Shown here piece after piece: positions 1 through 60,496 of a stretch of DNA of 60,496 nt (position 1 is its first letter; each line of letters opens with the position of its first letter). Where the stretch lies: positions 1 to 60,496 of IMG/VR virus record IMGVR_UViG_3300033146_000395; one strand, written 5' to 3'. The notes beneath the pieces were generated by a model, which worked only from the letters and a program-made list of their open reading frames with translations, made no database searches and was not told the DNA's origin. The DNA comes from a virus. The translations under genes and the position numbers were made by a program.

Positions 1-341
1 GTAGCAACAAAAAGCTACTGAAGTCTAACAACACAAAGTATTCTCCAGTCAATGTGAAATCTTTTGGTGTTGAGATTCGAATACCAAGTGCTGTGAAAAA
101 TGTAAGGCAACTCAAATTGAGGTACGACTTGATATACAAAATCATGCATCACAGCCTGCAAACTAGACAGTCCTACGACAAGCTTCTTGAGAAGATTGAC
201 TACATACTGATGCGTATGTATAAAGACAGGCTTAAAGTCGATCAAGTCAAGAACCTGTCATACGATTTCAGGAAGTACTTACTTAGTGATGAGTACCCAA
301 ATAGTATACGAGAATATTTAGAAACAGAAGATGAAGATTAA
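1..341 (+). CDS. Amidoligase-like protein, C-terminal part (5' part lies at the window's right end)
   Basis: The reading frame is open from base 3 with no stop before it, so the gene enters from outside. The codon split a(60496)+gt(1-2) joins it in frame to the ORF starting at 59596, giving one 413-residue protein. This part supplies about 112 residues. It has the C-terminal core expected of amidoligases (COOH-NH2 ligase superfamily): a V-E-I-R-I-P-S-A-V strand at about residues 324-332 (whole-protein numbering), with E325 and R327 as likely substrate or ATP ligands, then a basic helical tail. The internal GTG at 54 is not the real start. The next gene, the amidotransferase/cyclotransferase fusion, begins 3 nt downstream, so both are probably cotranslated. 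Whole-family assignment is inferred from motifs. Confidence 0.8.
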   Translation, partial: SNKKLLKSNNTKYSPVNVKSFGVEIRIPSAVKNVRQLKLRYDLIYKIMHHSLQTRQSYDKLLEKIDYILMRMYKDRLKVDQVKNLSYDFRKYLLSDEYPNSIREYLETEDED

Positions 342-344
342 ATT

Positions 345-1382
345 ATGTGTGTAATTATTGTAAAACAAGACAACGACAAAGTGATCAGGCAAGATACCCT
401 GATTGCTTCAGCAACTAAGAACCCTCATGGATTGGGTGTTCTGTGGTTGGACAAGTGGAACATTGAATACTTCAACAGCGAAGACTATCGAGTCTTGCTA
501 ACGAAGAGACCATTCATTGCCCACTTCAGATACGCAACGGTTGGTAAAGTGTCGAGAGAAAACTGCCACCCGTTCAACATCAACAAGAATGAAGTGCTGT
601 TTCAGAACGGAACTATCTACAATCTTGGAGATGCAGACACAACAGATACAGAAGCTATGGCTGTGATACTCAGGGACATACCCAAAAAACATTGGGCAGA
701 TGTACTCGAGATGAATGACTGCAGGTTTGTAACAGCAAACCTAAAGACCAAAACATTCGAGCTGTACAACAAGCAAGATTGGGTACAACGTAATGGAATA
801 TATTACAGTAAAAAGAATGTGCTTGACTTGACGGCAATAGCTGTGTACGGAACATTGAAGAAGGATTACTCCAACTACTATGGCTACCTCAAGAGCGCAG
901 CCTATGTGGGAAGGGGTGAAACGAAAGACAAGTACCCTCTTGTAGTTACAGGTCTACCATACCTGCTAAACAAGAAAGGTGTTGGTCACAATGTAGAGGT
1001 TGATGTGTTCCTTGTTGATTCATACACCCTGTCTAGGGTTGATGGTCTAGAGGGACACCCCAACTGGTACGAACGCAAGAAGATCAAGATTGATCTGGGT
1101 GACAATCAGTACATCAGTGCTTGGATATACTTCAACGACACTGAAGACACTGGCGTCTATCATCAAGCTTATACTCAAGAAGTTAGATCGAGCTCATACC
1201 TTGGGTACGATAGATGGAACTCTTGGGATGACATTGATGAGGTGGGTGATGACTTTGGAACTGCAAAGTATGAACCTAAACCATCTCACGAAGCTTGCTT
1301 TTGTGGGGATCAGTTGTATGACGATCCGTTCTACCCAGGCGAGAAGTACTGTATGAGTTGTGAAGACTATGTAACTGTTTAA
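345..1382 (+). CDS. Class II glutamine amidotransferase fused to gamma-glutamylcyclotransferase (AIG2/GGCT-like) and a Cys ribbon
   Basis: Three parts are visible. Residues 1 to about 155 are an Ntn-type class II glutamine amidotransferase. Cys2 directly after Met is the predicted nucleophile that releases ammonia from glutamine, with motifs H-G-L-G-V, H-F-R-Y-A-T-V-G and F-Q-N-G-T-I. Residues about 165-270 are a gamma-glutamylcyclotransferase (AIG2-like) domain: Y168-G-T-L-K loop and a candidate catalytic Glu at 236 in V-D-G-L-E-G-H-P. The C terminus has a possible zinc ribbon (C318-x-C320 and C336-x2-C339). It lies 3 nt behind the amidoligase, and amidoligase/GATase/AIG2 neighbourhoods are known from comparative genomics. 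I infer a joint role in making or removing an amide or gamma-glutamyl modification; the target is unknown. Confidence 0.85.
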   Translation: MCVIIVKQDNDKVIRQDTLIASATKNPHGLGVLWLDKWNIEYFNSEDYRVLLTKRPFIAHFRYATVGKVSRENCHPFNINKNEVLFQNGTIYNLGDADTTDTEAMAVILRDIPKKHWADVLEMNDCRFVTANLKTKTFELYNKQDWVQRNGIYYSKKNVLDLTAIAVYGTLKKDYSNYYGYLKSAAYVGRGETKDKYPLVVTGLPYLLNKKGVGHNVEVDVFLVDSYTLSRVDGLEGHPNWYERKKIKIDLGDNQYISAWIYFNDTEDTGVYHQAYTQEVRSSSYLGYDRWNSWDDIDEVGDDFGTAKYEPKPSHEACFCGDQLYDDPFYPGEKYCMSCEDYVTV

Positions 1383-12005: not shown

Positions 12006-12081
12006 AGATACAGCACCCTGGATTATAGCTATATTTGTTAGCGCATGCTTTTGGTACTCTATTCTAAGGCATTTCCTGTAG
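11995..12081 (+). CDS. Putative single-pass membrane micropeptide (28 aa)
   Basis: From ATG 11995 the product is a short acidic N terminus, a hydrophobic stretch (W-I-I-A-I-F-V-S-A-C-F-W-Y) and a basic C-terminal R-H end, the layout of a small membrane peptide. It overlaps the preceding gene by 11 nt and runs 18 nt into the end of the convergent late operon. It would be the last plus-strand early gene. Short length makes coding status uncertain. Confidence 0.35.
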   Translation: MKNEDTAPWIIAIFVSACFWYSILRHFL

Positions 12082-20069: not shown

Positions 20070-23000
20070 TTAAGTACATGCTATGTTAGCTATAACTATA
20101 CCGTTTTCAACTTGAATCGCTCTATGAGGCGCTGGACCTATTCCACTAGCATACCACCCATCATCCATTGGGGTTACACCATTAGGATCTTTAAATACAG
20201 CTCTGTAGCCATGTCGGCCAGATGCGTTGTTATTTGGCGTGTCATAAAATAGAGGGAAGGAAGGTAGGTCTGGGCCATAACTAGGTCCTCCACTGCCTAT
20301 TTCATCCACAAAACCGTTTACACCACTAAATTTTGGTAAAGGCGTAAAGTAATATGTTTCTGTTGCTAAAGCACAAACAGACGATGTTTGCTTTACACTT
20401 GCCTGGAAAGAAGGAAGAGCTGCTGGACAGAAAGCTGCTGCCTTCCAAACAGTTGAATCACATGGGCCTAAAACCTCTAATTGAATATTTTGTATAAAAG
20501 AACTTGTCTTTGGAATAACTAGGGTGTTAAAAATCTGTTGCCCAAACTGAAAAAGCCTACCTCCTGGAGTAAAGAAAGTTGTTCCAGGGCCAGGAGCGTT
20601 AGATACATTGTAGGTGTACGACTTAGAAGTGCCGGTGTTGTTCCATGAGCTTCCAGTATATCCATCGAAATATCTATATGGTACTGTGTCTTGGTTTAGG
20701 CAGTAGCTTCTAACAGTACTTGAGCAGCTATTATTTGCTATTGAGCTTCCTGCCAGAACAAATCCTCCGCTAGGATCCGACCAAACACCTCCATTAACTG
20801 TGTATTGCTGCCTATTGTAAGTGATAGTTCTAGGGCCCCTTGTGTCTACTAGCGTATTGTACGTTTGCCCATTGTATATAGCTCTAACTCCATCTATATA
20901 CCCTCGAGGGTCAAAATGTATTATAACAGCCCCAGTGTCACTACCCACGTTTAAATTTACATTATAATACCCTTCGCCTCCACTAGGTATATTTAAGTCG
21001 TCACCGCTACAAGCTTGAGACGGCGGGCATGTTGGGCACGAAGTTAAAGCTCCTAGCACACCTTGAGCATCTAGCTCTCTATACTGTCCATTCACTCCTT
21101 TATACAAACCTGGTGCAGCAAGTGTTTGCGATGCGTCAGAATAAAGAGTGTTAGAAAGTGGAGTAGTATCAAAGTTAGTCCCTAGTGGTAAGTAATATGT
21201 GTCTGAGGACGGCGACCCGCAGCACAATACATATTCATCTGATGCATCAAAAGCTAACTCAACAGAATTAACACAGACAGGGCATGTTGTAACAACTCCG
21301 AGTGTTGAAGATGATTGCTCTCTATATGTTCCTGAAGTAGGTACTTGATAGAATCCATCAGCTGCCGGAGTTAGGTTGGTGTCTGAATACAAGTTAGTTG
21401 TAGCGTCAAAAGATGATCCATCAATATAGTAAGTTGCCGTAGGTTTTGTGTTACAACATAAGTCTGTGGCATCTACACTACTGTATTCTAAAGTAATCGC
21501 AGTAACACACGAAGGACACGCAATTGCTGACTGAAGCACCCCTCCAGAAGTTTGTTCTCTGTAAGTTGTTTGTAGGTTTTCTTTATAAAATCCAGCTGCA
21601 GCTTTTGTTGTAAGTGTGTCGTCCGTGTATATGTTAGTTGCATCAGCAAATGTAGTTCCATCTACTCTAGCCATAAACACATTGGAGGTCTGCTGAGGAT
21701 CGCAACAAACTTCTTGTGCGCTTACAGAACTGTAATCTAAATTAAGAGATACAGCGCAGGTTAAACATGTAGCTGCTGTTTGAAGTGCAGATGAAGATTG
21801 CTCTCTATATTGGATTTGTCCAACAGGCAAATAGAATCCGTCAGCAGAAGGCGTTGTTAAACTTGTGTTGTCATATAGAACTGTAGCAGAATAAAACCCT
21901 CCTTCAAGTGCGCTTACATATTTAGTATTTGGTGTGAGTGATAAGCAACAAACGTCTACCGAAGAGTCAGAATCATACACTACAGACACCCCTATATAAC
22001 AATTAGGAAGTGATTGCTGTGATCCTAAAACTCCTGATGATTGTTCTCTATAGAAAGTTCCCGCAGCCTCTTTATAGAATGCATCAGGCGCTGGGTTAGT
22101 TGCCCCTATGTCTGTAAATAATGCTGGAGCATTTGCGAATGTAGTTCCATTGGCAATGTAGAATGTTCCTGACTGTGGAGTTCCACAAGTTAAATCAATA
22201 GCCGTACTATCAAACTCTAATGTAATTGCATAATGGGTAGGCGGCGTTATACATGGACTAGTTACCGATTGAACGATACCATCTATAACTTGTATGTATG
22301 AATCTGGATTAGTTCCACCCGCGCTATCAATGGTGTAATATCCGTCAGGTAAAAGGTTTTCTCCGTTTTCATCAGTGAACACCCAGTTGGATTGTTCAGG
22401 CACAGTGTTGGTTCTAACCGATATTTGTCCAGTTCCAGGTTGGTCTGCGTTTCTAGCAAAGTAAAAAGTTTCTGTCAAAGGATTGCAGCTTCCGTCAGAC
22501 TGAACTGGAGTTGAACTAAAACTTGGTAAAGCCACAGGACAAAACGTTGCTATATCAAATACAGTTCCTGTGCTTATACCTATTGACTCTACTAGCACTG
22601 TAGAAGGGAATTGATTTGGTTTTGGCACAACTATAGTCCCCCATTCAAAATTAGTGTTTGCTGTTCTGGCGTCATCTCCTGCAGATAAGGTTGCTGTTTT
22701 AGTTGATCCTGATGGAATCCAAGCTTGTGTGCTTGGGTCATAGGAATAAAATGGCAGCTCAAAACTCGTGGTAGGTCCATTAGGGAATGGTGGGTTTGGC
22801 AAAGAATCTGTTGGATCTCCAACGATTGTGAATGAACTATCTGTAGATCCTTGCGCTGGGACGAGGTCACCTATAAATGCCATTTTATTATAATACGCCC
22901 CATCATACAAAACCCTAACACCATCAGGTATTCCTCTTGGATTAAAGTAAACAATCATAGCGCCTGTATCACCAGGGTTGCTGCCGCCTTCAAAATTCAT

Positions 23001-26000
23001 TTCAGAATAACTTTCTCCTTGTATACTTGATGTAGGAGCTGGCGTGCTTGAACATGGTACAGTCGGCAAGAAACAATCTCCAACTTCTATGACAATTCCT
23101 CGTTTTACTTTTATGTAAGTAGTGTCTGATAATATGTAAAACTGCGCAGTTAGCGTGTCGTTTAATTTTGTTGTAGCTACAAAGTCTTCAAACACATAGT
23201 TACCTACAATTGGCTTATTATTAGTGTCCTCTACAAATGAACTCCCGTTCCACGTTGCATTTCTAGCAAAGAAGAATGTATTTTCGTTTGTGTCTGGAGT
23301 ACAGTTGTTGTTTAATTGAGGAGCTGAACAATTAAAAGATGGTAGTGGTGCTGGGCAGTTCACTATCCAGTTAAACTCTCCTTCATCCACACCAAAACAA
23401 TCTACCGACACATTGTATGATCCTGTCCAAGGTAAAACCATCGTATATATCGTTGGGTCTCCACCTTTAAGATCTATGTTTGTTGGATCAACAGTAACTG
23501 TTGATAATGGAAACCCTGGATTTATATAGTTCCCTGCAGAATTTAACTTAAACGTAGGAAGGTTTGAGGTGGTTTCAGGTGTTATAAAAGGTGTTCCTAT
23601 ATATGTCGGCTCCCCTGAATTGCTATTGATGCCTACAGGGTCTCCAGAATTGTTATTATATGTAAATTGATTTTGCAGTGTTGTATTTGAGAATCCAGCT
23701 CGAACTCCAAGAGGAGTGTTTGCAGGTCTAAAATAAATCACAACAGGCTGTTTTAAAGTAGTTAGTGAAATATCTCCAATATAAGTTCCGCCCACCTGGG
23801 TTGCTGATGCTAAAGTCCCGCAGTCAACAACGCAAGTTATGCATGGCTCTTCGTCTTGTAAAATCCCATTAGATTGATATCTAGATATTGTTCCGTCAGA
23901 ATAAAATTGATCAGGAGCAAGTTGAGTTAAAGATGGATTAGTGTAAACACTAGATGCTTGAGATAAAAATGGCGCATCTATATAAAATGTTGCTTTTGAA
24001 GTACACTCGCAGCAGACGTCATTTGCGCTAACTGTAGAAGTACATAACTCTATCGCATTAACATTTCTGTAATCCCAAACTAAATATAGATACGCATGAT
24101 CAGATGGATTGTTGTATGTAAACGAAGCCTGATACTTACCTGTAGATGGGTTTGATGTTGGAGTAGCCACAGTTAAGTTTGGATCTACCAATAGAGATGT
24201 TATATCTGCAGATGTGTTTTGATATAGCGTGTTTGAAACTAAATATCTAAAGTTGTGATAGTTTTCGTCAAAAACAAAATCATCGTTAGATAATTTATTT
24301 GATATGATCGTAATCGTAGCTCCGTCTGCAGGTATAAGTCCAACCGACTCTTTTCCTGTTCCGCTCTGATATTGTGAGACTACAGGCACTGGTAGCCCAC
24401 CGAACTCAATTTGTGTGCTGGATAAGGGACTCGCAGGATTAGGCGCTAACTCCCATTGATATTGATTGTGTATGTATTTATCTTCATCTTCCGGAGAAGT
24501 TATTGCCACTTGAATAACTGTTAATTCAGCTGCATCAACGCAGTTAGGCGTTATAGTGTAGTCTCCTCTTTGAGAAGGAGTGACTCTAAATTCAGCGGTA
24601 GTGGGATAAGCAAAATCTTTACTAAAAATTACAGACGATGTTCCGGCGGGTAAACTATATGTTGTGGTACTGCCATTGTAAATAATATCTAAAGATAAAT
24701 TTACTGTAGATGTATAATCTATTGTAGCGTCCCCAATTACTTCACCAAAATTTACTATAAATGAATATGGCCTTATGTCAGAGTCTTTTATAATTATAGG
24801 GGTCCCACAACCTGATTCTGGAATAGGTATAGGAATAGGTTGATCGTTAGACCCTAAAACATATTCATTCATGTATGGATCGTAACCACCTAGCTTTTGA
24901 GTTTCAAATCCCTGTTGGAATTTATCTCTAAAGTAAGATCTCATTCCAGCTTGAGAAATAACCTCCAGCTTTTCGTTTGAATAATCAGAACCTGTTAGTT
25001 TTATAACAGCGCCTCTACTTGTGTCGGTAAAATATTTATCATACCCAAACGAAGCAAAGCTTTCTGGGTTTTGACTAATACCATATTCTTCTAATCTAGC
25101 TATCTGAGTTCCTAAAACTTCAGGCACAGATGTGATAGCTCCGCCAGCTGCTGCATCAGACAATAAGTTTTTACCGGCCAAAACATAAGAAATTCTATCT
25201 TCCTGAAGAACAAGAAGGTCTGTTTCTCTAGGCGCTAGCTTCTGAATAGATCCGTAGTTTTTCTCTAAGTCTTTAAAGTTTGCAAGTCCTAAGTTGAATT
25301 CGTTTAATCTATTTACGTTTGTCTCGTTTCTAAATACACCACTGTATGTTATGCCCGCAAACCTGTGGGCTCTCTTGTAGTCTTGCTCTGATACAGAGGT
25401 AACTCTCTCTCCTAAATAAAACTTAGCTCCTGTTTGGTTATCCAAAGCTTTATAACTTTCAACGCCATTTCCAAAAGAAAAGCAGTCAAAAAAACTTAGA
25501 GTCATTATTGCTGGTTGAGTAGCGGTCTGATTTTGATCTCCGTCTTTATTTCCAGACATGTGGAATCCCCCTGATATGTCGTAGTTTTCAGAACCTTCAT
25601 AATAAAGGTCCACATCAGCGTCCAATGGTTTTGTTTCAAAAACACACAAACTTTGAGCTAGAGTCACAATGATTTCTATCTTTATTTTTGATGACTCCTG
25701 ATATGGGCAATGTTTTATGCCACACATTCCAACTAAATACATTCTCCCTGGAGTCATTGATGGAATAAAGCCTTGGGTTGTCGGTTGAACAAATTGAAGC
25801 TGATGATTCCTTCCTCTAGTTTTTGATTCTGATATTTCATATCCCCCTGCTGTAGTTAAATCGGTAGCTAGATTCGGGTAAAAAGTTATGCTTTGATTTT
25901 GAGGATCGTTATCATCATTGCCACCTTTTACTCCGTTTTCAAAATTTATGTTTTCACCTATAACAAATTGATAAAGACTATCATAGTCGGCATTTGCGGT

Positions 26001-28454
26001 AAATATTTTTGCGTCATCACCACCTAATCCGTAATCATAATAAACACTTCCACATCTTTTTTGAAATCCAGAGTCTCTGTAAAACTTAATCCTAAACTCT
26101 ACTGTCGAACCAGCTGGTATAGCATATGCATTATAGTATGGATCAGCCGGCTGCAGATCTTGACTTTCATCAAAAACTGGTTGCCACGTAAGGGCATAAT
26201 CTCCCTTGCTAAAAGAAGAGGGGTTTTTTATAACAACAACCTCATCTAGCGGTCTGCTTGCTATAAAATCATCTGGTCTAACTTCCATATATAAACCAGA
26301 GGGCTCAGGAACTTCGTCCCCTGCAGAGGTTTCATTGTTTAAAAAATCTTTAGATTTAGCCTCTAGCGACAAAACTTGTGTTTCAACAACTCTTGATATT
26401 GTCCCCGCCAAATCTCTCTTCACAATCAATTCATCTCCGCTTTTTACTTTTGTTTGGTTCTGACCTAGCAGCTGAAAGAAAACACTACTTGAGTTAGGAT
26501 CTTTAAAAGATAAATTGCTATATATAGTCTCATAGTCTGACTGAACTCTTTTTACTACAAACTTATATTTAGTTGCCCAACTTGGAGGCAAAGAATTTAG
26601 AGTTACTTTTAATTTGTTTATTGCAGTTGAAGATGAGGGAGAAGTATAAACAGAGTTATTAGAAGAAACAAGAGCAGTTGAGCTTCTGTTGTATTCGTCC
26701 ATATAAACTATTCCAACTTCATAATCTCTGTTACTGTGCAAACTTTTTTTAGATGCTGATGAAGAAAAAAATGGGCTTACTGTAAAAACAGAAAAATATT
26801 CAAACAAATTGTAAACAGTTCCTGGAGTTGTGGTATCGTCTTTAAATCTTATAGCCGGAAATTGTAAGCTAAAAATGTTTGATCCAGGATTTGCTGTTAC
26901 CACAACACCTTCAAAAGCCTTATTAACGCCAAATTCATCTTTAACCCAAGTAAAAGTATTATCAACTCTAGGGCTATCAACCGCACACACAAATCTTTCC
27001 GTCAAACTAAACCCTTGGCTAGAAGTTCCGCACGAGGAAATTGGTTGGACGTTTGGACTCCCAAACCTTGTGGAAGCTCCTATCGCAGTTTGAAAAGCTG
27101 CAGATGAAACTAAATCAAATGCATTTGCATAATCTCTTTGTAAAGAAAATGAAAAGTTTTCATCTATAGGCGCTGTTACACTTGGACTTCCAGATGTTTC
27201 TCCTGCAAAAGTGTTGTGCTGAAACTCAAATCCTATTTGAAGTAAAGACCCCGCTTTTAAATCTAATCCGCTAAAGTCAAAGGTGACTTTACTTTGAGGT
27301 ATTGATATATTGTTCTGTCCTGTTGTAAAGTTGTATACACTGCTAGAGGATGTTTCTTCTAAGTCAGAAGCTCCAGGGTTTGTTGTAATAATTTCTGTGT
27401 CAAAATCTATGTTTATGGGAGCTCCAGATTCATTAGATATATCATATCCTTCGACGTAATTACCAAACATTAGTCGGTTGCCCATCAAAACTAAAGATTT
27501 AGCTGTCAATGGAACATTGTCGTAAAGCCTTAATAACTCCGATTCTGTAAGCGTAGTATATATTTTTCCGTTATTAAAGGTAAGTGACTGTGTAGAGTTG
27601 CTTGGATATCCCAAACCTTCTTTATCTACCTTTTCAATAACGTTTATGACATTGGATTCAGGAATTTTAAAACACACATCTACACCAACAACATCTTGAG
27701 AACCTGTGTTAAAAGAAACGTTTACACTATTGTAGATGTTTTTCATTCCCTCATTGTTCATGTCTGAAAGATTGAACCTGAATTGTGAAGGCTCAAAGGC
27801 AACATCTGTAAATTGGGAAAGGGCAGAATATTCGCCGTCAACATATCTATATCTATAGGCAAAAGAAACGAACCTAGTCTCTAAATAATTTTCTTCACCC
27901 GGTGAATTTCTTAGTGATACAGAAGGCGCTTCTGATGGAGGCTTAACTATTAAGTTAATCTCTTCATCTGTAATCTTATCCACCCCATTCTCAGGAAAAT
28001 CATAATCTCTAGATACATTTATTTTTCTTGGCGGATTTAAGTTGTCTGTAAAGTATAACAGATCTTCGATCTTATCTACGCCAGTGATTAAGTGTTTGTC
28101 ACTAAAGTTTAATACAGTATAACTTTCTATATGTTTTGTTAGGTTATTATTTCTAACGTCGTATGATAATATTAAGTCGCCTATATCAGACGTTACAAAC
28201 CAATATATTGTGTCGTTCTCAGAATCAGCATAAGCCCCGATACAGGTTGGGTTCTGTCCACTTAAGCTTTGGCCATCAAAGTTAATATCAGTAAGTCTGG
28301 TGTTACCTTTTGAGTTTTCTACAGCTCCAATCTCAGATCCCTCTGTAGATCCGAGCCTAACATTCATTGCGTCAATGTACTCTCCAGGACGAATCAATCG
28401 TTCATCCACAGACTTATTCATTACGCCTCTAACAAAATTCTGAGTTGTCTTCAA
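20070..28454 (-). CDS. Tail hub/stabilisation protein (P22 gp10-like, crAss type) with giant Cys-rich adhesin extension, 2794 aa
   Basis: The N terminus (N-F-V-R-G-V-M-N-K-S-V-D-E-R-L-I then G-E-Y-I-D-A-M-N-V-R and G-S-E-I-G-A-V-E-N) is the signature of the crAss-like stabilisation protein, related to P22 gp10, which forms the tail hub or nozzle. This core fills roughly residues 1-1200. The remaining 1600 residues are beta-rich and modular: three copies of an F-x-P-R-G/F-R-P-A-N module around an x-D-G-V-R-x-x-Y-x-G motif, F-C-P-A-x-L-P-S-F linkers, and about five tandem 80-residue repeats near 2090-2480 with Y-R-E-Q-S-S, C-x-x-C and C-C. The extension probably carries receptor-binding or surface-exposed domains. 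It is the longest gene in the genome. Confidence 0.8.
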   Translation of the reverse strand: MKTTQNFVRGVMNKSVDERLIRPGEYIDAMNVRLGSTEGSEIGAVENSKGNTRLTDINFDGQSLSGQNPTCIGAYADSENDTIYWFVTSDIGDLILSYDVRNNNLTKHIESYTVLNFSDKHLITGVDKIEDLLYFTDNLNPPRKINVSRDYDFPENGVDKITDEEINLIVKPPSEAPSVSLRNSPGEENYLETRFVSFAYRYRYVDGEYSALSQFTDVAFEPSQFRFNLSDMNNEGMKNIYNSVNVSFNTGSQDVVGVDVCFKIPESNVINVIEKVDKEGLGYPSNSTQSLTFNNGKIYTTLTESELLRLYDNVPLTAKSLVLMGNRLMFGNYVEGYDISNESGAPINIDFDTEIITTNPGASDLEETSSSSVYNFTTGQNNISIPQSKVTFDFSGLDLKAGSLLQIGFEFQHNTFAGETSGSPSVTAPIDENFSFSLQRDYANAFDLVSSAAFQTAIGASTRFGSPNVQPISSCGTSSQGFSLTERFVCAVDSPRVDNTFTWVKDEFGVNKAFEGVVVTANPGSNIFSLQFPAIRFKDDTTTPGTVYNLFEYFSVFTVSPFFSSSASKKSLHSNRDYEVGIVYMDEYNRSSTALVSSNNSVYTSPSSSTAINKLKVTLNSLPPSWATKYKFVVKRVQSDYETIYSNLSFKDPNSSSVFFQLLGQNQTKVKSGDELIVKRDLAGTISRVVETQVLSLEAKSKDFLNNETSAGDEVPEPSGLYMEVRPDDFIASRPLDEVVVIKNPSSFSKGDYALTWQPVFDESQDLQPADPYYNAYAIPAGSTVEFRIKFYRDSGFQKRCGSVYYDYGLGGDDAKIFTANADYDSLYQFVIGENINFENGVKGGNDDNDPQNQSITFYPNLATDLTTAGGYEISESKTRGRNHQLQFVQPTTQGFIPSMTPGRMYLVGMCGIKHCPYQESSKIKIEIIVTLAQSLCVFETKPLDADVDLYYEGSENYDISGGFHMSGNKDGDQNQTATQPAIMTLSFFDCFSFGNGVESYKALDNQTGAKFYLGERVTSVSEQDYKRAHRFAGITYSGVFRNETNVNRLNEFNLGLANFKDLEKNYGSIQKLAPRETDLLVLQEDRISYVLAGKNLLSDAAAGGAITSVPEVLGTQIARLEEYGISQNPESFASFGYDKYFTDTSRGAVIKLTGSDYSNEKLEVISQAGMRSYFRDKFQQGFETQKLGGYDPYMNEYVLGSNDQPIPIPIPESGCGTPIIIKDSDIRPYSFIVNFGEVIGDATIDYTSTVNLSLDIIYNGSTTTYSLPAGTSSVIFSKDFAYPTTAEFRVTPSQRGDYTITPNCVDAAELTVIQVAITSPEDEDKYIHNQYQWELAPNPASPLSSTQIEFGGLPVPVVSQYQSGTGKESVGLIPADGATITIISNKLSNDDFVFDENYHNFRYLVSNTLYQNTSADITSLLVDPNLTVATPTSNPSTGKYQASFTYNNPSDHAYLYLVWDYRNVNAIELCTSTVSANDVCCECTSKATFYIDAPFLSQASSVYTNPSLTQLAPDQFYSDGTISRYQSNGILQDEEPCITCVVDCGTLASATQVGGTYIGDISLTTLKQPVVIYFRPANTPLGVRAGFSNTTLQNQFTYNNNSGDPVGINSNSGEPTYIGTPFITPETTSNLPTFKLNSAGNYINPGFPLSTVTVDPTNIDLKGGDPTIYTMVLPWTGSYNVSVDCFGVDEGEFNWIVNCPAPLPSFNCSAPQLNNNCTPDTNENTFFFARNATWNGSSFVEDTNNKPIVGNYVFEDFVATTKLNDTLTAQFYILSDTTYIKVKRGIVIEVGDCFLPTVPCSSTPAPTSSIQGESYSEMNFEGGSNPGDTGAMIVYFNPRGIPDGVRVLYDGAYYNKMAFIGDLVPAQGSTDSSFTIVGDPTDSLPNPPFPNGPTTSFELPFYSYDPSTQAWIPSGSTKTATLSAGDDARTANTNFEWGTIVVPKPNQFPSTVLVESIGISTGTVFDIATFCPVALPSFSSTPVQSDGSCNPLTETFYFARNADQPGTGQISVRTNTVPEQSNWVFTDENGENLLPDGYYTIDSAGGTNPDSYIQVIDGIVQSVTSPCITPPTHYAITLEFDSTAIDLTCGTPQSGTFYIANGTTFANAPALFTDIGATNPAPDAFYKEAAGTFYREQSSGVLGSQQSLPNCYIGVSVVYDSDSSVDVCCLSLTPNTKYVSALEGGFYSATVLYDNTSLTTPSADGFYLPVGQIQYREQSSSALQTAATCLTCAVSLNLDYSSVSAQEVCCDPQQTSNVFMARVDGTTFADATNIYTDDTLTTKAAAGFYKENLQTTYREQTSGGVLQSAIACPSCVTAITLEYSSVDATDLCCNTKPTATYYIDGSSFDATTNLYSDTNLTPAADGFYQVPTSGTYREQSSSTLGVVTTCPVCVNSVELAFDASDEYVLCCGSPSSDTYYLPLGTNFDTTPLSNTLYSDASQTLAAPGLYKGVNGQYRELDAQGVLGALTSCPTCPPSQACSGDDLNIPSGGEGYYNVNLNVGSDTGAVIIHFDPRGYIDGVRAIYNGQTYNTLVDTRGPRTITYNRQQYTVNGGVWSDPSGGFVLAGSSIANNSCSSTVRSYCLNQDTVPYRYFDGYTGSSWNNTGTSKSYTYNVSNAPGPGTTFFTPGGRLFQFGQQIFNTLVIPKTSSFIQNIQLEVLGPCDSTVWKAAAFCPAALPSFQASVKQTSSVCALATETYYFTPLPKFSGVNGFVDEIGSGGPSYGPDLPSFPLFYDTPNNNASGRHGYRAVFKDPNGVTPMDDGWYASGIGPAPHRAIQVENGIVIANIACT
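20990..22260 (-). repeat. Tandem 80-residue cysteine repeats inside the hub gene
   Basis: A tctct-containing motif encoding the Y-R-E or Y-R-E-Q-S box recurs at about 21075, 21318, 21557, 21799 and 22041, a period near 240 bp. Each unit also has a C-x-x-C after the Y-R-E box and a C-C or paired Cys before the next unit. Copies have diverged at DNA level, so recent expansion is not implied. Confidence 0.7.
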
Positions 28455-38372: not shown

Positions 38373-38628
38373 AACCTCGGGTTGTGTTTAAACTTGTGTC
38401 TGTTTCTCCCATGCTGTCTTTCTCTCCCTCGATTCTAGATAGTATTTCAAATGCATCTAATATAGCAAGCTTCTTTGTTGCTGCGGCATTCTTGAGCCTA
38501 TCTGCAGCTAACTCATCCTCTGGATCTGGTTTGATAACTTCTTCCTTGGCTATCTTAATTAGTTGTCTTACCGCTATATATCCAGCTGATATTATATCTT
38601 CTCTTATTTTTTTAGACTTATCTTCCAT
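38350..38628 (-). CDS. Candidate terminase small subunit (92 aa)
   Basis: The start ATG at 38628 overlaps the preceding stop as TAATG; a start five codons upstream is possible but less likely. The protein is helical: M-E-D-K-S-K-K-I-R-E-D-I-I-S-A-G then two Lys/Ala/Glu-rich helices with A-A-T-K-K-L-A-I-L-D-A-F-E-I-L. Position immediately before terL with a 23-nt overlap, and small helical composition, suggest a TerS. No HTH motif is certain. Confidence 0.5.
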   Translation of the reverse strand: MEDKSKKIREDIISAGYIAVRQLIKIAKEEVIKPDPEDELAADRLKNAAATKKLAILDAFEILSRIEGEKDSMGETDTSLNTTRGFAERRSK

Positions 38629-39191
38629 TACAATATAGCACAAATATTTTTTGTTTTCATTCTATACATCTTTTCACCATCTACAATAAATTCATATTCT
38701 GAGTCTGGTGTGAACATAACCTCGTCTCCTTCCTTTACTCCAAGTGTGGATAAATTTTTATTTGAATGAACCACAGTTCCAACAAGATCCTCGTTCTTTT
38801 GTGTCTTGTGGTATATAGACTTTTTACTTCTAGATGGTGACACAAAGCAATAGTCATCATGGGTGTACCATTTAACCATTTTTTTGTACATATAAAACTG
38901 ATCGTTATCTATAAAGAAAAGATTGTCTTTAAAAAAACTTCTTCCGCTTCTTTCTCTACCCTTCATATCATAGTAATACTTGAACACATTATGATGAACC
39001 AAAAGAATATCGCCAGCTTCTATAGGGCCTCTGTAGTTTAGCGGAGTTGATATTACAGAAGCAAATCTATTAGACACAGTGTGGTCTTCTTTAGATGTGC
39101 TTATGATCAGTTCTTTGTCGTCATAGTTTTTTACAGCATCATATCTAACATCTCCACACGGGGAAACTATAAAATAAAAAGGAGATCTCAT
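38628..39191 (-). CDS. GroES-like (Cpn10 fold) protein, possible double barrel (187 aa)
   Basis: The C-terminal 80 residues follow the co-chaperonin pattern: G-T-V-V-H-S-N, then V-K-E-G-D-E-V-M-F-T-P, E-Y-E-F-I-V-D-G-E-K-M-Y-R-M and a final I-C-A-I-L strand. The N-terminal half has a similar order (F-A-S-V-I-S-T-P, I-E-A-G-D-I-L-L-V-H-H, F-I-D-N-D-Q-F-Y-M-Y). I read this as two tandem Cpn10-like barrels. It sits at the head of the packaging genes and is separate from the canonical GroES at 52709, so it may assist capsid folding. Weak similarity only; other beta-barrel folds are possible. Confidence 0.5.
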   Translation of the reverse strand: MRSPFYFIVSPCGDVRYDAVKNYDDKELIISTSKEDHTVSNRFASVISTPLNYRGPIEAGDILLVHHNVFKYYYDMKGRERSGRSFFKDNLFFIDNDQFYMYKKMVKWYTHDDYCFVSPSRSKKSIYHKTQKNEDLVGTVVHSNKNLSTLGVKEGDEVMFTPDSEYEFIVDGEKMYRMKTKNICAIL

Positions 39192-46985: not shown

Positions 46986-47105
46986 TTATCTTCTTTTCTT
47001 TCCTTGACCTCTTCTAGGTTTCTTATATCCGTTCTGAGATTTAGATGAGTTTTTTGAGTGTACGCCCTTTCTTCGAGTCTTTGGTTTTTCTATATATGAT
47101 TTAAT
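46986..47105 (-). CDS. Lys/Arg-rich micropeptide with non-ATG start (about 39 aa)
   Basis: The frame encodes a very basic peptide with E-K-P-K-T-R-R-K-G-V-H-S-K then R-R-G-Q-G-K-K-R-R at the end, a pattern I recall from recurrent small phage proteins. There is no ATG, GTG or TTG. The first plausible codons are ATT at 47103-47105 or ATA just upstream, within the end of the holin gene, so it may be read by an unusual start or by reinitiation. The composition argues for coding. Confidence 0.45.
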   Translation of the reverse strand: MKSYIEKPKTRRKGVHSKNSSKSQNGYKKPRRGQGKKRR

Positions 47106-47502
47106 TATCAGTCGAGCCATTCTTTTTGTTTTTCTCCCATGTACGGCCCACGAAGTATGCACCATACACAGTTATTAATAATGATTGAAATATTGGTATG
47201 TAATCTTTTTGAACCTTAAATCCACCAACGTTTCCATCGGTAAAAGCTAGTAGCGTAAACATAGCTGTAAGAAACACCATTACAAGCGGGCGTATATTCT
47301 TGGACAAAAAACTGTCGCTCTGCATATCATACTTCCACCTTTCTGTAACCTGAGACTGAGCATCGTTATCAGCTTTTTCTAGCAATTGCTGTATCTTATG
47401 CTTTGCCTCAAGACGCTCCTCTTCAGTTGTGGTTACACTGTCGATCACACCTCCAATATCTTTTATCAGCCCTCCTGTTATAAGTTGTATTAATTTTTTC
47501 AT
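47101..47502 (-). CDS. Holin (GTA-type 3-TM holin-like)
   Basis: A basic amphipathic N terminus and charged helical part are followed by R-W-K-Y-D-M-Q-S-D-S-F-L-S-K-N-I-R-P-L. Two clear membrane segments follow (P-L-V-M-V-F-L-T-A-M-F-T-L-L-A-F and I-F-Q-S-L-L-I-T-V-Y-G-A-Y-F-V-G-R), then a basic tail. This is the pattern of the holin family of gene-transfer-agent type (W-x-x-D-x-x-S-D-S-W-L-S-K-x-I-R-P). It lies two genes from the M15 endolysin. The N-terminal stretch may add a third membrane-associated helix. It would make the lesions that let the endolysin reach the wall. Confidence 0.75.
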   Translation of the reverse strand: MKKLIQLITGGLIKDIGGVIDSVTTTEEERLEAKHKIQQLLEKADNDAQSQVTERWKYDMQSDSFLSKNIRPLVMVFLTAMFTLLAFTDGNVGGFKVQKDYIPIFQSLLITVYGAYFVGRTWEKNKKNGSTDN

Positions 47503-47576
47503 TTGTATTTTTTAAACATTAATTTATACAAAAGGCTATTCCAAGTTGACTGTAATTTATCTATAAACTTTTTCAT
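47499..47576 (-). CDS. 25-residue amphipathic micropeptide between endolysin and holin
   Basis: ATG at 47576 overlaps the endolysin stop as ATGA, and its TGA overlaps the holin ATG as ATGA. The peptide begins M-K-K-F-I-D-K-L and ends K-L-M-F-K-K-Y-K, amphipathic and cationic with one Trp. The double overlap is unlikely by chance, so it is probably translated and couples the two lysis genes. It could also act on the membrane. Confidence 0.5.
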   Translation of the reverse strand: MKKFIDKLQSTWNSLLYKLMFKKYK

Positions 47577-48034
47577 ATAACTCTGTATTGTGTTTTGCCA
47601 TCAATCCTTTCAGCTCTCAAACACCTTCCTCTATTCCTGTCTGGAGAAACATAAGATACATGCACCCAGTCAGGGTTATTGTCATCGCCAAACTCCCATA
47701 TCATTTGATCAAAGTCTAAGTGTTTTTTTATGTACTGAAACATCTCAGCATTGGTCTTGTGTCCATAGCTATCGTCAATATCAATAGCTCTACCCTGACA
47801 ATGTTGACTGGATTCACTTCCACCAATAGCTTTGTTTAGGTCTGGAACTCTCAGAAAAGAATTTATTTTTATAGGCCCTCTAACCCATTTTCTAAGCGGC
47901 TCAAAGATATTCTCCGCTATCACTTGCATGTTTGTAAATTGATATTGATCTGGAGTATTGTCAATACCCAATCTAAGGGCAGTTACAGAACGAGTGCCCT
48001 CCTTGTAGCTAATGTGTTCGCTTATTCTCTCCAT
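47573..48034 (-). CDS. Endolysin, peptidase M15 (D-Ala-D-Ala carboxypeptidase/endopeptidase-like)
   Basis: The 153-residue enzyme has the M15A zinc motifs: S-S-Q-H-C-Q-G-R-A-I-D-I-D at about 72-84 (S-x-H-x-x-G-x-A-x-D) and D-W-V-H-V-S-Y at about 124-130, plus I-N-S-F-L-R-V-P near 57-64. It cleaves peptidoglycan cross-bridges at the end of infection. No signal peptide, so export depends on the holin next door. It is separated from the Trx-like gene by an 11-codon Cys-rich ORF. Confidence 0.9.
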   Translation of the reverse strand: MERISEHISYKEGTRSVTALRLGIDNTPDQYQFTNMQVIAENIFEPLRKWVRGPIKINSFLRVPDLNKAIGGSESSQHCQGRAIDIDDSYGHKTNAEMFQYIKKHLDFDQMIWEFGDDNNPDWVHVSYVSPDRNRGRCLRAERIDGKTQYRVI

Positions 48035-52269: not shown

Positions 52270-52743
52270 ATGAAATTTGACAAGAAGATACGCAAAAACT
52301 ACGACAGAAAACCGCCTGGGTATGATTACATGAAGTATTACAGGGTGGTTAGGCACTGGGTAACGGCTAAGTATGGAGTTTCTACAGCTGATCTAGAGAT
52401 GATGTTCTTTCTATATAGCGAACAAATATTCAGCAGAACTAAGTTCAACGAGTTTGAAGAGCTCATGTCTTGGGATGACAAAAGATTCAAAAGACTTGTA
52501 AGGGAAGGTTGGATTGGCATATGGAGGAAGAGGCAGGGATCTCAGAAGACATTGTACGAACTATCATACAAAGGGAAGCGATTGATCACTACGGTATACA
52601 AGAAACTGAACGGTGAGGAAATATCTGAGCAGAAGAACCCCATGTTTTTAAAAGGAGCCTCCTACTCAGATCGGGTTTACAGGAACATGATCGTTGAGAT
52701 GAACAAAGCTATAAGACAACAACGACGTCTTTCTCGAGAATGA
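52270..52743 (+). CDS. Putative winged-helix regulator, lone plus-strand gene in the late region (157 aa)
   Basis: Start ATG 52270 is preferred over an upstream ATG at 52171 that would run through the late promoter. The protein is basic, with Y-Y-R-V-V-R-H-W-V-T-A-K-Y-G-V-S-T-A-D-L-E-M-M-F-F-L-Y and a wing-like W-I-G-I-W-R-K-R-Q-G-S-Q-K-T-L-Y-E-L-S-Y-K-G-K-R-L, the order of MarR-type winged helix domains. It diverges from the late operon and its last 35 nt overlap GroES antisense. I infer a late-gene regulator. Family is not certain. Confidence 0.6.
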   Translation: MKFDKKIRKNYDRKPPGYDYMKYYRVVRHWVTAKYGVSTADLEMMFFLYSEQIFSRTKFNEFEELMSWDDKRFKRLVREGWIGIWRKRQGSQKTLYELSYKGKRLITTVYKKLNGEEISEQKNPMFLKGASYSDRVYRNMIVEMNKAIRQQRRLSRE

Positions 52744-52966
52744 CAGTGTATGGTTTGTCGTCTATAAGGACTGTATGTCCTGCGTGCTTGTCAAAATAAA
52801 TATTATCGTTTTCTTTTATTGAGTCAACAAGAGTGCCTGGTTTAATAACGACGCCCTTTTGATATCTTATGGACTTCTCGTCCTCCGCAGACAGAAGGAG
52901 TCCAGACTCAGTCTTAAACTCCTCCTTTATCTTTTCAACTATAATATATTTATTAATTGGTTTCAT
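52709..52966 (-). CDS. groES: Co-chaperonin GroES
   Basis: 85 residues, close to a typical GroES (about 95). Pattern: P-I-N-K-Y-I-I-V-E-K-I, a short mobile-loop region E-S-G-L-L-L, then K-G-V-V-I-K-P-G-T, N-D-N-I-Y-F-D-K-H-A-G and a final V-I-L-E-K-D-V-V-V-V-L. Forms the heptameric lid of the chaperonin encoded immediately upstream, with which it overlaps by 14 nt. The mobile loop I-V-L motif is altered to G-L-L-L, perhaps matched to the phage GroEL. Confidence 0.85.
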   Translation of the reverse strand: MKPINKYIIVEKIKEEFKTESGLLLSAEDEKSIRYQKGVVIKPGTLVDSIKENDNIYFDKHAGHTVLIDDKPYTVILEKDVVVVL

Positions 52967-54539
52967 ATGTTCTGGCCATTGTTACAATTGCATTTGTAGA
53001 AAGAATAGTTGTAGCTACAGAGAGTGCGTTCTTCAGTGCGTTCTTAGTAACCTTTGCTGGATCTATGATTCCCATCTTATACAGATCACCAACTTCGCCC
53101 GTCTTCGCATTCAAACCTTGACTAAAGAACTCGGTTAACTGCCCGCTCACAGAGTCTGGATCTGTTCCGGCGTTGACAAGGATTTGTCTAAACGGCGCAC
53201 GTAGTGCGTCACGCATAATTTTTTCAGCGTCACTTGCGCTATCATTGTCCCAATCAGAGGTCATCTTATATAGAACGCTACCTCCACCTGGTATGATTCC
53301 TTCTTCAAGTGCAGAGCGAACTGCACACACCGCGTCGTCAACGCGGTCAAATTTTTCTTTCTGCTCCACATCAGAGTTACCCCCAACATAAATCACGCCT
53401 ACCGAACCGCTCAGTCCTGCGATACGCTCACTGATAAAATCACGATCACCCTTCTTAGTGGTATTCTGCAGTGCTTCACGCAGCTCAACGATACGCTGGT
53501 CTATCACAGCTTGGTTATCACCCTGCTCTTTGACAAGAACCGTTTGGTCTCTTCCCACCACAATACGATCCACATGCCCTAGATCAGACATACTAATCAA
53601 CTCAAGGTTATCTCCTGTAGATTCTGAGAAGTACTTTGCTCCAACCGACACAGCGATATCCTGCATAAGCTCATGCTGACGATACCCGAAACTTGGCGGA
53701 GGAACGTTACATATCTTCAGATTGTTCTTCACGACATTAGCAGCAAGGGTGTTTATCACATTACCCGTACATGTACCTATGATCAGTAACTTCTTGTTGG
53801 CTTGAATGATCGGCTTGAGTATATTCTCAATCGCAAGTATGCTGTTTATTTCTTGGTCTGTAACCAGAACCAGAACGTCATCTAAGATACACTCGTCCTT
53901 TCTCTGGTTGTTTACAAAAAGATTCGATGAGTATCCTCTATCTATCTTCAAACCCTTTGTAACCTCAGCATACGTCTCCGTTGTTTGAGACTTCTCTACT
54001 GTCACCACACCGTTCTTCCCAACACTGTGATAAGCGTCCGATATGACTTTTCCCAGTTCTTTATCGTTATTAGCCGAGATTGTGGCTACATCGAGCATGG
54101 TCTTTTTAGTAAGCCGTTTCGCCTTAGAGTCTATACTTGATACCACTTGGTCTGTGATATTAGCCATTTCTCGTAGCGTCTCCGCCTTGTTGTTTTTAAT
54201 GTACTTTGTGCCGGCCTTGACCATTGCTTCAGTGAGCACGATGGCAGTAGTAGTACCGTCCCCAGCTTGAGTGGCTGTCTTGTCTGCAGCCTCCTTCATC
54301 ATCTTCACTGCTAAGTTCTCAACCGGATGAATAAGATCAATACTCTTGGCTACCGTCACCCCGTCCTTTGTAACCGTAATGCCGTGCGTGTGATTAGGTG
54401 ACTCAATAATAACTGTGTTGCCTCGAGGACCGAGCGTGCTCTTTACAGCTGATGCTATTTTCTCTATACCATTAACAAGATTCTCCCTACCCTTGTCGTC
54501 GAAGAAAAGTTCCTTCGGACTATAACCTGATTCGTTCAT
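52953..54539 (-). CDS. groEL: Chaperonin GroEL
   Basis: 528 residues, about the length of cellular GroEL, with T-L-G-P-R-G-N-T-V-I near residue 39, the ATPase motif G-D-G-T-T-T-A at about 93-99, and G-G-G-S near 400-420. The C-terminal Gly-Gly-Met tail of bacterial GroEL is missing (ends T-Y-E-T-N). Forms double-ring chambers for folding, here probably of large capsid and fibre proteins. It is transcribed with groES from a TATATTTG box at 54560 and lies apart from the late operon. Confidence 0.95.
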   Translation of the reverse strand: MNESGYSPKELFFDDKGRENLVNGIEKIASAVKSTLGPRGNTVIIESPNHTHGITVTKDGVTVAKSIDLIHPVENLAVKMMKEAADKTATQAGDGTTTAIVLTEAMVKAGTKYIKNNKAETLREMANITDQVVSSIDSKAKRLTKKTMLDVATISANNDKELGKVISDAYHSVGKNGVVTVEKSQTTETYAEVTKGLKIDRGYSSNLFVNNQRKDECILDDVLVLVTDQEINSILAIENILKPIIQANKKLLIIGTCTGNVINTLAANVVKNNLKICNVPPPSFGYRQHELMQDIAVSVGAKYFSESTGDNLELISMSDLGHVDRIVVGRDQTVLVKEQGDNQAVIDQRIVELREALQNTTKKGDRDFISERIAGLSGSVGVIYVGGNSDVEQKEKFDRVDDAVCAVRSALEEGIIPGGGSVLYKMTSDWDNDSASDAEKIMRDALRAPFRQILVNAGTDPDSVSGQLTEFFSQGLNAKTGEVGDLYKMGIIDPAKVTKNALKNALSVATTILSTNAIVTMARTYETN

Positions 54540-59454: not shown

Positions 59455-59603
59455 TGTTTGATATAGTTTATAGATCCCAATGGGGGAATGAAGTAGTTGA
59501 CACTGCCGACACTAGGCAGGAAGCTGAATACTTGCGTGGCGAGTACATGCTAGCATTCAATAGTAGTAATATAACAATTAGAAAAGGAAGGAAAGATGAA
59601 TGA
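59454..59603 (+). CDS. Small phage protein (49 aa)
   Basis: I-V-Y-R-S-Q-W-G-N-E-V-V-D-T-A-D-T-R-Q-E-A-E-Y-L and an I-T-I-R-K-G-R-K tail. I recall V-V-D-T-A-D-T-x-x-E-A-E-Y-L as a recurrent small-phage-protein motif. Overlaps the amidoligase gene by 8 nt and the preceding gene by 1 nt. Confidence 0.6.
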   Translation: MFDIVYRSQWGNEVVDTADTRQEAEYLRGEYMLAFNSSNITIRKGRKDE

Positions 59604-60496
59604 GGAATTAGTTGAGGACTTGGTCCAAGTGTACCCTGATGATGGGGAACACAATAAAGACGAGTGTGTGTATGCCGACTATGTAGATAGGTATATACTA
59701 AAGGAAGATGCATATCAGTGTGAGGAAACTGGAAGCTGGTATCATCAGCATAATGTCCATGATCACATGACATGGTGCGAATATGACGGCGTGTGGGTTG
59801 AGCATGAGTATGCTTGGAGATGTGAGGCAAATGATGAGTATTTTTATCACACCGACTACAAAGGAGAGTTGTATAACAATGAAGGGTATATTCATACTGA
59901 AAACCCTGATGAGTACGAATATGTGGAGCATGGTCGCGCCGAAGGGTATTGGCTGTATCGAGACGACACTGCATGGTGCTATGATATAGATGGGCCTGTT
60001 CATAGTGATGACGCATTTTATTGCGAGGACGATGGGGAGTACTACTATGATGAAGATGAGATGCCAAGTAGATCTAACGATGAAGATATATGTTCGTATC
60101 ACGGCTCACCTCAGCCAGAGATGATTCTAAATGCAGATGATAGCTATATGAGAATCGGATTTGAGATAGAGAAGACGTACTTTAGAGGGTTCAATGGTTA
60201 TGATGTAGATTCCGAGGGTGATCATGTAGGCTCTCACACTTTGTTCAAAGGCTACGAGAGTGACAGCTCATGTGGAGTTGAAGCTATCACAAACATACTA
60301 CCACTAGATAGTCCAAGGAGTGAGGGTAGGAATGCAGTGTTTGAGTATTTTGACGAGGCAGAATGTATTATCAATTCGCCAGCGAGCAAAAGATGTGGTG
60401 GACATATATGTATATCTGTGATGGGTTGGAATCCATACGATATGCTTGACAGAATGCGTGGTAACATGGCAATACTGTACTCAATGTACAGATGGA
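59596..60496 (+). CDS. Amidoligase-like protein, N-terminal 300 residues (continues at base 1)
   Basis: ATG 59596 opens a frame with no stop to the window end. Residues 1-180 are tandem modules of about 16-18 residues, each with a W/Y-x-C-E/Y box, an aromatic pair and an acidic His/Asp box (W-C-E-Y-D-G-V-W, F-Y-C-E-D-D-G-E-Y-Y-Y-D-E-D), resembling repeated half zinc-ribbons. The amidoligase domain begins at I187-G-F-E-I-E (E190, E192), followed by D222-x-S-x-C-G-V-E229 and G268-G-H-I-C-I-S274, and closes in the part at 1-341. Amidoligases use ATP to join a carboxylate to an amine. An 8-nt overlap links it to the preceding gene and 3 nt to the GATase/cyclotransferase gene. Substrate unknown. 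Confidence 0.8.
   Translation, partial: MNEELVEDLVQVYPDDGEHNKDECVYADYVDRYILKEDAYQCEETGSWYHQHNVHDHMTWCEYDGVWVEHEYAWRCEANDEYFYHTDYKGELYNNEGYIHTENPDEYEYVEHGRAEGYWLYRDDTAWCYDIDGPVHSDDAFYCEDDGEYYYDEDEMPSRSNDEDICSYHGSPQPEMILNADDSYMRIGFEIEKTYFRGFNGYDVDSEGDHVGSHTLFKGYESDSSCGVEAITNILPLDSPRSEGRNAVFEYFDEAECIINSPASKRCGGHICISVMGWNPYDMLDRMRGNMAILYSMYRW

Follow-up and report, generated by a model that had tools for sequence, protein, structure and literature searches.

Phage modules for peptidoglycan modification that combine an amidoligase, a GATase or aminohydrolase, a cyclotransferase, a COOH-NH2 ligase and an ATP-grasp enzyme have been described (PMC5498523), and the accessible portions of two further papers describe such modules likewise (PMC11945000 and PMC3890496). 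According to the same sources, as far as their text is accessible, the carriers of these modules are RIO1-like podoviruses, phiEco32 and LUZ24-like phages (PMC5498523, PMC11945000, PMC3890496). A role in superinfection exclusion has been suggested in two partly accessible accounts (PMC10580990, PMC11318856), and the recycling of host material has also been discussed for genes of the module region (PMC5498523). In the accessible parts of the published accounts, the action of the modules on peptidoglycan is a prediction, modification of the wall or of other targets by phage amidoligase modules having been predicted since 2009, and no biochemical test of such a module was found there.

We analyzed a virus record of 60,496 bases, hereafter called the window, which is the whole stretch of DNA under study. 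An initial annotation had placed an amidoligase next to a three-part fusion protein and linked the two genes to the comparative work of Iyer and colleagues (2009). Judged through the papers that cite this work, the link is apt, and the association of amidoligase, GATase and cyclotransferase is indeed that of the published phage modules, which are read as cell-wall modification in the accessible text. Our preferred, although tentative, reading is that the locus represents a compact, early-expressed gamma-glutamyl amide cassette, a reduced relative of the "peptidoglycan modification" modules whose most likely target is an envelope precursor. The enzymes themselves are real and well supported, and the compact fused version is found in many related uncultured phages. 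They probably synthesize and trim an unusual amide bond, based on glutamate, on a host or phage molecule. Consisting of a ligase and an obligate partner that combines the glutamine-using and the cyclotransferase step in a single chain, the two-protein version is probably the simplest one for expression, purification and assay. A ligase family missed by Pfam, PHROGs and NCBIfam, with 248 matching stretches in viral contigs, would also gain a name.

Organization and genomic setting of the cassette

The features of the cassette in the window are as follows.

59596..60496 (+): 5' part of the ligase gene (aa 1-300), from the ORF and the join; an acidic Cys/Trp/Tyr-rich N-terminal region (approximately aa 1-180) is followed by the start of the predicted GS/GCS-fold core (by hhalign and fold), with the GFEIEK motif at aa 188-193
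1..341 (+): 3' part of the ligase gene, across the contig ends, with approximately 21 nt (7 conserved residues) apparently missing
345..1382 (+): fusion protein of 345 aa, comprising class II GATase, GGACT and Cys ribbon
345..818 (+): class II GATase (Ntn) domain, aa 1-158, nucleophile Cys2 (PF13522/PF13230, invariant residues, fold)
828..1184 (+): GGACT domain, aa 162-280, catalytic E236 (PF06094, fold, conserved residues)
1272..1382 (+): C-terminal Cys ribbon, aa 310-345, four Cys (Cys columns, beta strands)

The two parts of the ligase ORF (59596-60496 and 1-341) form an in-frame circular join of 414 codons including the stop (413 aa). The stop codon occupies positions 339-341, and the ATG of the fusion lies at position 345, 3 nt downstream. 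The relatives L003 (421 aa), L004 (417 aa) and L005 (428 aa) each encode the ligase as a single uninterrupted ORF located 2-3 nt before the fusion, and the circular join is therefore biologically right, as the initial annotation had assumed. Seven residues present in each of the five aligned relatives are missing from the joined ligase right where the two contig ends meet (60496 / 1), so that approximately 21 nt seem to have been lost from the contig at the join, with the frame apparently preserved by chance. No terminal repeat was found at the contig ends; the relative MW202828 is a circular record of 60,850 bases.

The cassette shares its strand with genes for a DnaA-like protein, a Sak annealing protein, an exonuclease and a primase, and the virion genes lie on the opposite strand. 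From this position and strand alone, we infer that the cassette is expressed early. Aminoacylated bases occur in some phages, and the location among replication and recombination genes would also accord with DNA base hypermodification, in which the ligase would add an amino acid to a modified pyrimidine. We regard this as extremely improbable, given that the record contains no thymidylate-synthase-type gene and that no other base-modification gene was recognized among the proteins scanned, which represent part of the ORFs. The 72-aa ORF at 1395-1613 weakly matched (E = 0.007) a family of phage DNA methyltransferases.

The TerL of the window is 71% identical to that of MW202828 and 46% identical to those of the Flavobacterium elemo phages. 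A TerL match was found in 87 records, every one of which is either the unclassified phage MW202828 or a phage infecting Flavobacterium, Cellulophaga, Tenacibaculum or Maribacter. A search of a genome collection returned only two loci, on MAG contigs labeled Cytophagales and Flavobacteriales, which give a weak hint of the host. In the isolate genome elemoA_7-9A, none of the three enzymes (GGACT, GATase and amidoligase) was found by model scans.

Identity of the ligase

Because no Pfam, PHROG or NCBIfam model names the ligase, its identity rests on a profile-profile comparison and on a structural model with a mean pLDDT of 61.8. The model PF12224 (Amidoligase_2) matched none of the 80 non-redundant ligase relatives at E 0.1 and nothing in the window record at E 1, and the same model was matched in 10 of 14 comparison records. 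When the profile of the 80 relatives was compared by hhalign with 10 phage amidoligases, all from records that match PF12224, the two aligned over 174 columns with a probability of 95.8 and an E-value of 6.5e-9, and the motif order GxExE - DxS - E - (C)GxH - EFR was shared. The amidoligase fold expected from profile searches in the initial annotation was thus recovered by profile-profile comparison but not by the Pfam model. A PDB sequence search with the ligase profile gave a single match at chance level, and the PADLOC defence-system models gave no match for the fusion or for the two ligases searched.

After omission of the truncated ligase L081, 11 residues were invariant in all 80 ligase rows (E188, E190, K191, E219, D221, S223, E227, E330, R332, R346 and Y347 in L003 numbering), and H268 was kept in 79. 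E188 and E190 correspond to E190 and E192 of the window ligase, within the GFEIEK motif. These glutamates had been named as catalytic in the initial annotation together with Cys2 and E236 of the fusion, and all of them exist in the window and are invariant in the relatives possessing the respective domains.

For the fold comparison, we used an AlphaFold2 model of the L003 ligase, which is approximately 73% identical to the window ligase; its core was modeled at a pLDDT of about 75 and residues 69-181 mostly below 50. All 50 PDB matches listed for this model belong to the GS/GCS superfamily (Z 7.4-9.1), with more than half of them under the caution limit of Z 8. They include YbdK (1r8g; Z 9.1, rmsd 4.2, 191 aligned) and PafA (4bjr; Z 8.1, rmsd 3.9, 176 aligned), as well as glutamine synthetases, Dop and glutamate-cysteine ligases. 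Characterized ligases of this superfamily act on the glutamate gamma-carboxyl. Motif order and predicted fold are thus shared by the cassette ligase with both PF12224 and the GS/GCS carboxylate-amine ligases, whereas the cassette ligase differs from PF12224 in going unrecognized by that model and, in the clade of the window, in an N-terminal extension. Profile-profile comparison and predicted fold together place the ligase with the amidoligases of the GS/GCS superfamily, upholding the identity given in the initial annotation; it is amidoligase-like in its predicted working and strictly outside the present Pfam family.

N-terminal region of the ligase

Residues 1-180 of the window ligase contain 50 Asp/Glu against 8 Lys/Arg, whereas the remainder of the protein is balanced (35 versus 33). 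Tandem C/W/Y repeats had been reported in this region. We compared the self-alignment of 11 proteins with 25 composition-matched shuffles each, and the window ligase scored 67 against a shuffle mean of 45.7 and a best shuffle of 83 (z = 2.0), so its repeats are not above composition. Repeats did exceed the shuffles in L003, L004, L023, L095 and L024 (z 4.3-5.8), were intermediate in L005, L020, L021 and L022 (z 2.1-2.8) and were absent in L015 (z 0.7). The repeats therefore hold for some relatives, confined to one clade, and not for the window itself.

The N-terminal region diverges faster than the core (49-68% versus 77% identity to L004/L003), and its dN/dS of 0.175-0.185 indicates that it is constrained. 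Across the four cassette regions that allowed an estimate, dN/dS ranged from 0.08 to 0.19. The idea that the N-terminal repeats are degenerate copies of the Cys ribbon of the fusion was rejected, as a ribbon HMM matched none of the 11 N-terminal regions at E 10, a threshold at which 5 of 220 shuffles were listed in the control.

Domains of the fusion protein

The fusion (345 aa) was modeled from 60 of 80 alignment rows with a pLDDT of 89.1. These 80 rows comprise 79 non-redundant relatives and the window; L009 and L010, which have a GATase without GGACT, were omitted before counting. In the GATase domain, C2, R62, H75, N88, G89 and D101 are invariant in all 80 rows. GATase_6 (PF13522) scored 26.1 bits (E = 1e-5), just below its cut-off of 27, and PF13230 fell just short as well (19 bits, cut-off 23). 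The modeled domain resembles the GlmS glutaminase (3ooj and 1xff; Z 12.4, rmsd 3.8-4.1, 155-160 aligned) and EgtC (4zfl; Z 11.5, rmsd 3.5, 153 aligned), and these fold matches do not separate an amidohydrolase from an amidotransferase.

The GGACT domain matched PF06094 with 69.8 bits (E = 4e-19, cut-off 22.8), and a profile search returned GGACT-type chains at 1e-14 to 4e-12. Its model superimposes on human and mouse GGACT (1vkb, 3jub-3jud) with Z 18.0-18.3 and 1.8-2.3 A over 118-119 residues, of which 32-33% are identical, and is closer to GGACT (Z approximately 18) than to GGCT (3cry, Z 11.8) or ChaC2 (6ky1, Z 9.8). The catalytic Glu is shared with the mammalian protein, which is a stand-alone enzyme, whereas the domain is fused behind a GATase here. 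YGTL and E236 are kept in all 79 rows having the domain. The exception among the 80 rows, L024, shows that the second domain can be missing from the fusion; its GATase relative (L024:7963-8706) lies 35 nt downstream of a ligase of the same family. The four Cys columns of the C-terminal ribbon are kept in 75-76 of 80 rows, its beta strands were modeled at pLDDT 80-89, and the four Cys probably form one zinc site. Profiles, folds and invariant residues thus bear out the GATase II and cyclotransferase identities assigned in the initial annotation, the latter specifically as GGACT.

These domain assignments bear on whether the cassette might act on an intracellular protein. EgtC is an Ntn hydrolase acting on a gamma-glutamyl substrate, and the known substrates of GGACT are of the gamma-glutamyl-lysine type. 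A PafA-like ligase could accordingly place glutamate, through its gamma-carboxyl, on the lysines of host or phage proteins or on another amine, and the GATase, as an EgtC/Dug3-like gamma-glutamyl amidohydrolase, and the GGACT, as a gamma-glutamyl-lysine cyclotransferase, could remove this tag. PafA and Dop among the fold matches of the ligase, the near tie of EgtC with GlmS and GGACT as the best match of the cyclotransferase domain are all consistent with such a writer and eraser pair. However, the fold matches leave amidohydrolase and amidotransferase on a par, the protein target is hypothetical, and the relatives with separate genes are read as wall-modifying in the accessible literature. 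We consider this explanation unlikely.

Pairing of the two genes in related phages

Scans of viral contigs yielded 248 relatives of the ligase and 273 of the fusion, and the best 80 of each were taken for analysis of their loci. Where at least 4,875 nt of downstream sequence was available, the ligase-selected loci all (62 of 62) contained the fusion; likewise, the fusion-selected loci with 6,100 nt or more on the upstream side all (58 of 58) contained the ligase. In all 150 loci with both genes, some of which overlap or represent near-identical contigs (99 are non-redundant by the first 200 aa of the fusion), the ligase lies upstream on the same strand at a distance of 1 to 4,875 nt. The 11 ligase-only and 6 fusion-only loci (of 160) retain only 1-2,643 nt on the relevant side. 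The pair is thus obligate. L009, L010 and L012 also carry an amidoligase, but one of the PF12224 kind.

Characterized relatives of both fused domains have gamma-glutamyl compounds as substrates, so the pair could in principle serve nutrient salvage, recycling glutamine, gamma-glutamyl peptides or glutathione-like compounds with no macromolecular target. The host-material recycling discussed in print for genes of the module region (PMC5498523) would agree with such a role, but an ATP-consuming ligase obligately paired with a hydrolytic fusion is hard to square with it, and we consider salvage very unlikely.

In a tree of the ligase core, the window grouped with 12 other tightly spaced rows having a long N terminus (L024, L068 and L088 together with 10 rows that include the window; branch support 100/98), whereas most of the remaining 68 rows have a short N terminus and a gap of 0.4-4.9 kb to the fusion. 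In 79 of the 99 non-redundant loci, the ligase is preceded by a gene of approximately 211 aa, which lies within 133 nt in 71 of these 79; an example from the sister clade is L080:6118-6741. This gene was absent from all six frames of the window and from each of the 11 loci of the repeat clade whose upstream flank extends to 5.7 kb or more. For the cluster-3 neighbor, Pfam (one member searched) gave no name, PHROGs (four members) gave one weak match (0.0088), and NCBIfam (two members) gave only weak matches below the cut-off. The distribution offers a lead that the N-terminal extension may have replaced a separate targeting or regulatory protein; because it reflects one evolutionary split on the tree, it is a lead and not independent evidence.

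If this lead were followed further, the cassette could be a self-contained, reversible gamma-glutamyl tagging system with alternative targeting modes, unlike the multi-ligase wall modules. The ligase would be the writer, and the GATase (as an EgtC/Dug3-like amidohydrolase) and the GGACT (as a cyclotransferase) would be the erasers; targeting would be provided by the separate protein of approximately 211 aa in the sister clade and by the ligase's own acidic Cys/Trp/Tyr-rich N-terminal region in the clade of the window. We regard this proposal as decidedly unlikely.

Comparison with described phage modules and possible function

Like the published modules, the cassette brings amidoligase, GATase and cyclotransferase together among early replication genes. 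In the modules, the enzymes are separate genes accompanied by a COOH-NH2 ligase and an ATP-grasp enzyme, whereas the cassette carries GATase, GGACT and Cys ribbon in one protein. The COOH-NH2 ligase model (PF14395) had no match in the window or MW202828, although Vibrio phage 1.293.O gave a match and the record of L010 a weak one. Similarly, the ATP-grasp models R2K_2 and RimK had no match in the window or MW202828 and were both matched in Vibrio phage 1.293.O and the record of L010, and R2K_3 had no match in the window record. Because the COOH-NH2 ligase and ATP-grasp enzyme were not found, the published three-linkage pathway cannot run as described; their absence argues against the full published wall pathway and therefore weakens an envelope reading.

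Of the 29 named phage records that match the fusion, MW202828 and C75C1 are the two in which the match extends over most of both domains, and the accessible literature, in which most subscription papers were out of reach, contained no description of a GATase-GGACT fusion. The fusion, called unusual in the initial annotation, is indeed so among named phages, yet it is what the phages of this uncultured group normally carry. In phage C75C1 (OQ984151), the fusion shares 41.5% identity with query residues 1-263 and likewise lies downstream of a ligase on the same strand. This ligase, however, belongs to the ordinary PF12224 type, a tblastn search with the L003 ligase did not detect it, four small genes separate it from the fusion, and the C-terminus of the fusion lacks the Cys ribbon.

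A survey of 14 phage records for the three enzymes detected GGACT in 9, GATase_6 in 5 and PF12224 in 10. All three occur close together as separate genes in the Arthrobacter phages Salgado and Ottawa and in Vibrio phage 1.293.O. In Salgado and Ottawa, the gene row GGACT - amidoligase - GATase II sets the three activities side by side as in the cassette, differing in the use of three separate genes, the order, a PF12224-recognized ligase and Arthrobacter hosts. Ligase and GGACT without a detected GATase were found in Bacillus phage 055SW001, Geobacillus phage GR1 and Blautia phage NatCom_2932. The records of L009 and L010 showed a ligase and a GATase but no GGACT, and in Porphyromonas phage019b neither partner of the amidoligase was found. 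Genes annotated as "hypothetical" beside the amidoligase in Salgado, Ottawa and NatCom_2932 are GGACT (PF06094; L177:3204-3656, L180:3207-3674 and L181:4979-5437). Taken together, the cassette is a reduced, fused variant of already known phage modules.

Class II GATases commonly supply a synthetase with ammonia. The GATase of the cassette could therefore channel ammonia to the ligase, which would make a primary amide from a target carboxylate, for example in a stem peptide of peptidoglycan or on the side chain of a protein, and GGACT would merely clear by-products or host gamma-glutamyl amines. The GlmS glutaminase as the closest fold of the GATase part and the presence of ligase and GATase without GGACT in L009, L010 and L024 favor such ammonia-only amidation. 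On the other hand, GGACT is retained with its catalytic Glu in 79 of the 80 fusion rows, and also beside amidoligases without a detected GATase in the Bacillus, Geobacillus and Blautia phages, so that gamma-glutamyl chemistry seems to be at the core of the system and not a side activity. We consider ammonia-only amidation somewhat unlikely.

The preferred reading of a gamma-glutamyl amide cassette directed at an envelope precursor takes the three enzymes as writer, supplier and editor on one target, which is favored because the ligase superfamily, the GATase and the GGACT all act at the glutamate gamma-carboxyl, where the chemistry of the cassette would be centered. Cys2 of the GATase would cleave the gamma-amide of glutamine, releasing ammonia and glutamate next to the ligase. 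With ATP, the ligase would activate a carboxylate, most likely the gamma-carboxyl of glutamate, and join it to an amine or ammonia on the target. GGACT would then cleave misplaced or unwanted gamma-glutamyl-amine bonds to 5-oxoproline and free amine, as an editing or eraser step that is not universal, since L024, L009 and L010 lack GGACT. The ribbon and, in the clade of the window, the acidic N-terminal region of the ligase, whose repeats had been taken in the initial annotation to bind the target, may hold a partner or the target. By analogy with the published hypothesis for related modules, the target would most likely be a cell-envelope precursor of a Bacteroidota host that is altered early in infection, and an intracellular protein or metabolite may serve instead. 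Predicted folds, catalytic residues, linkage and constraint are established here from sequence comparison and models, and with these data the "peptide tagging" and "wall modification" of the initial annotation are indistinguishable.

Other features of the genome

The phage encodes GroEL (phrog_5725; 52953-54539, -), GroES (Cpn10; 52709-52966, -) and a second, longer GroES-like protein (phrog_13932; 38628-39191, -). GroEL lies on the reverse strand in 74 of the 99 related loci. A very long ORF of 2794 aa with a TTG start occupies 20070-28454 (-), and an ORF of 1490 aa at 12064-16536 (-) matches the phage families phrog_14770 and phrog_616, both of unknown function. A Peptidase M15 gene (47573-48034, -) lies beside a gene for a GTA-type holin with three TM segments (47101-47502, -), and the two are likely a lysis pair.
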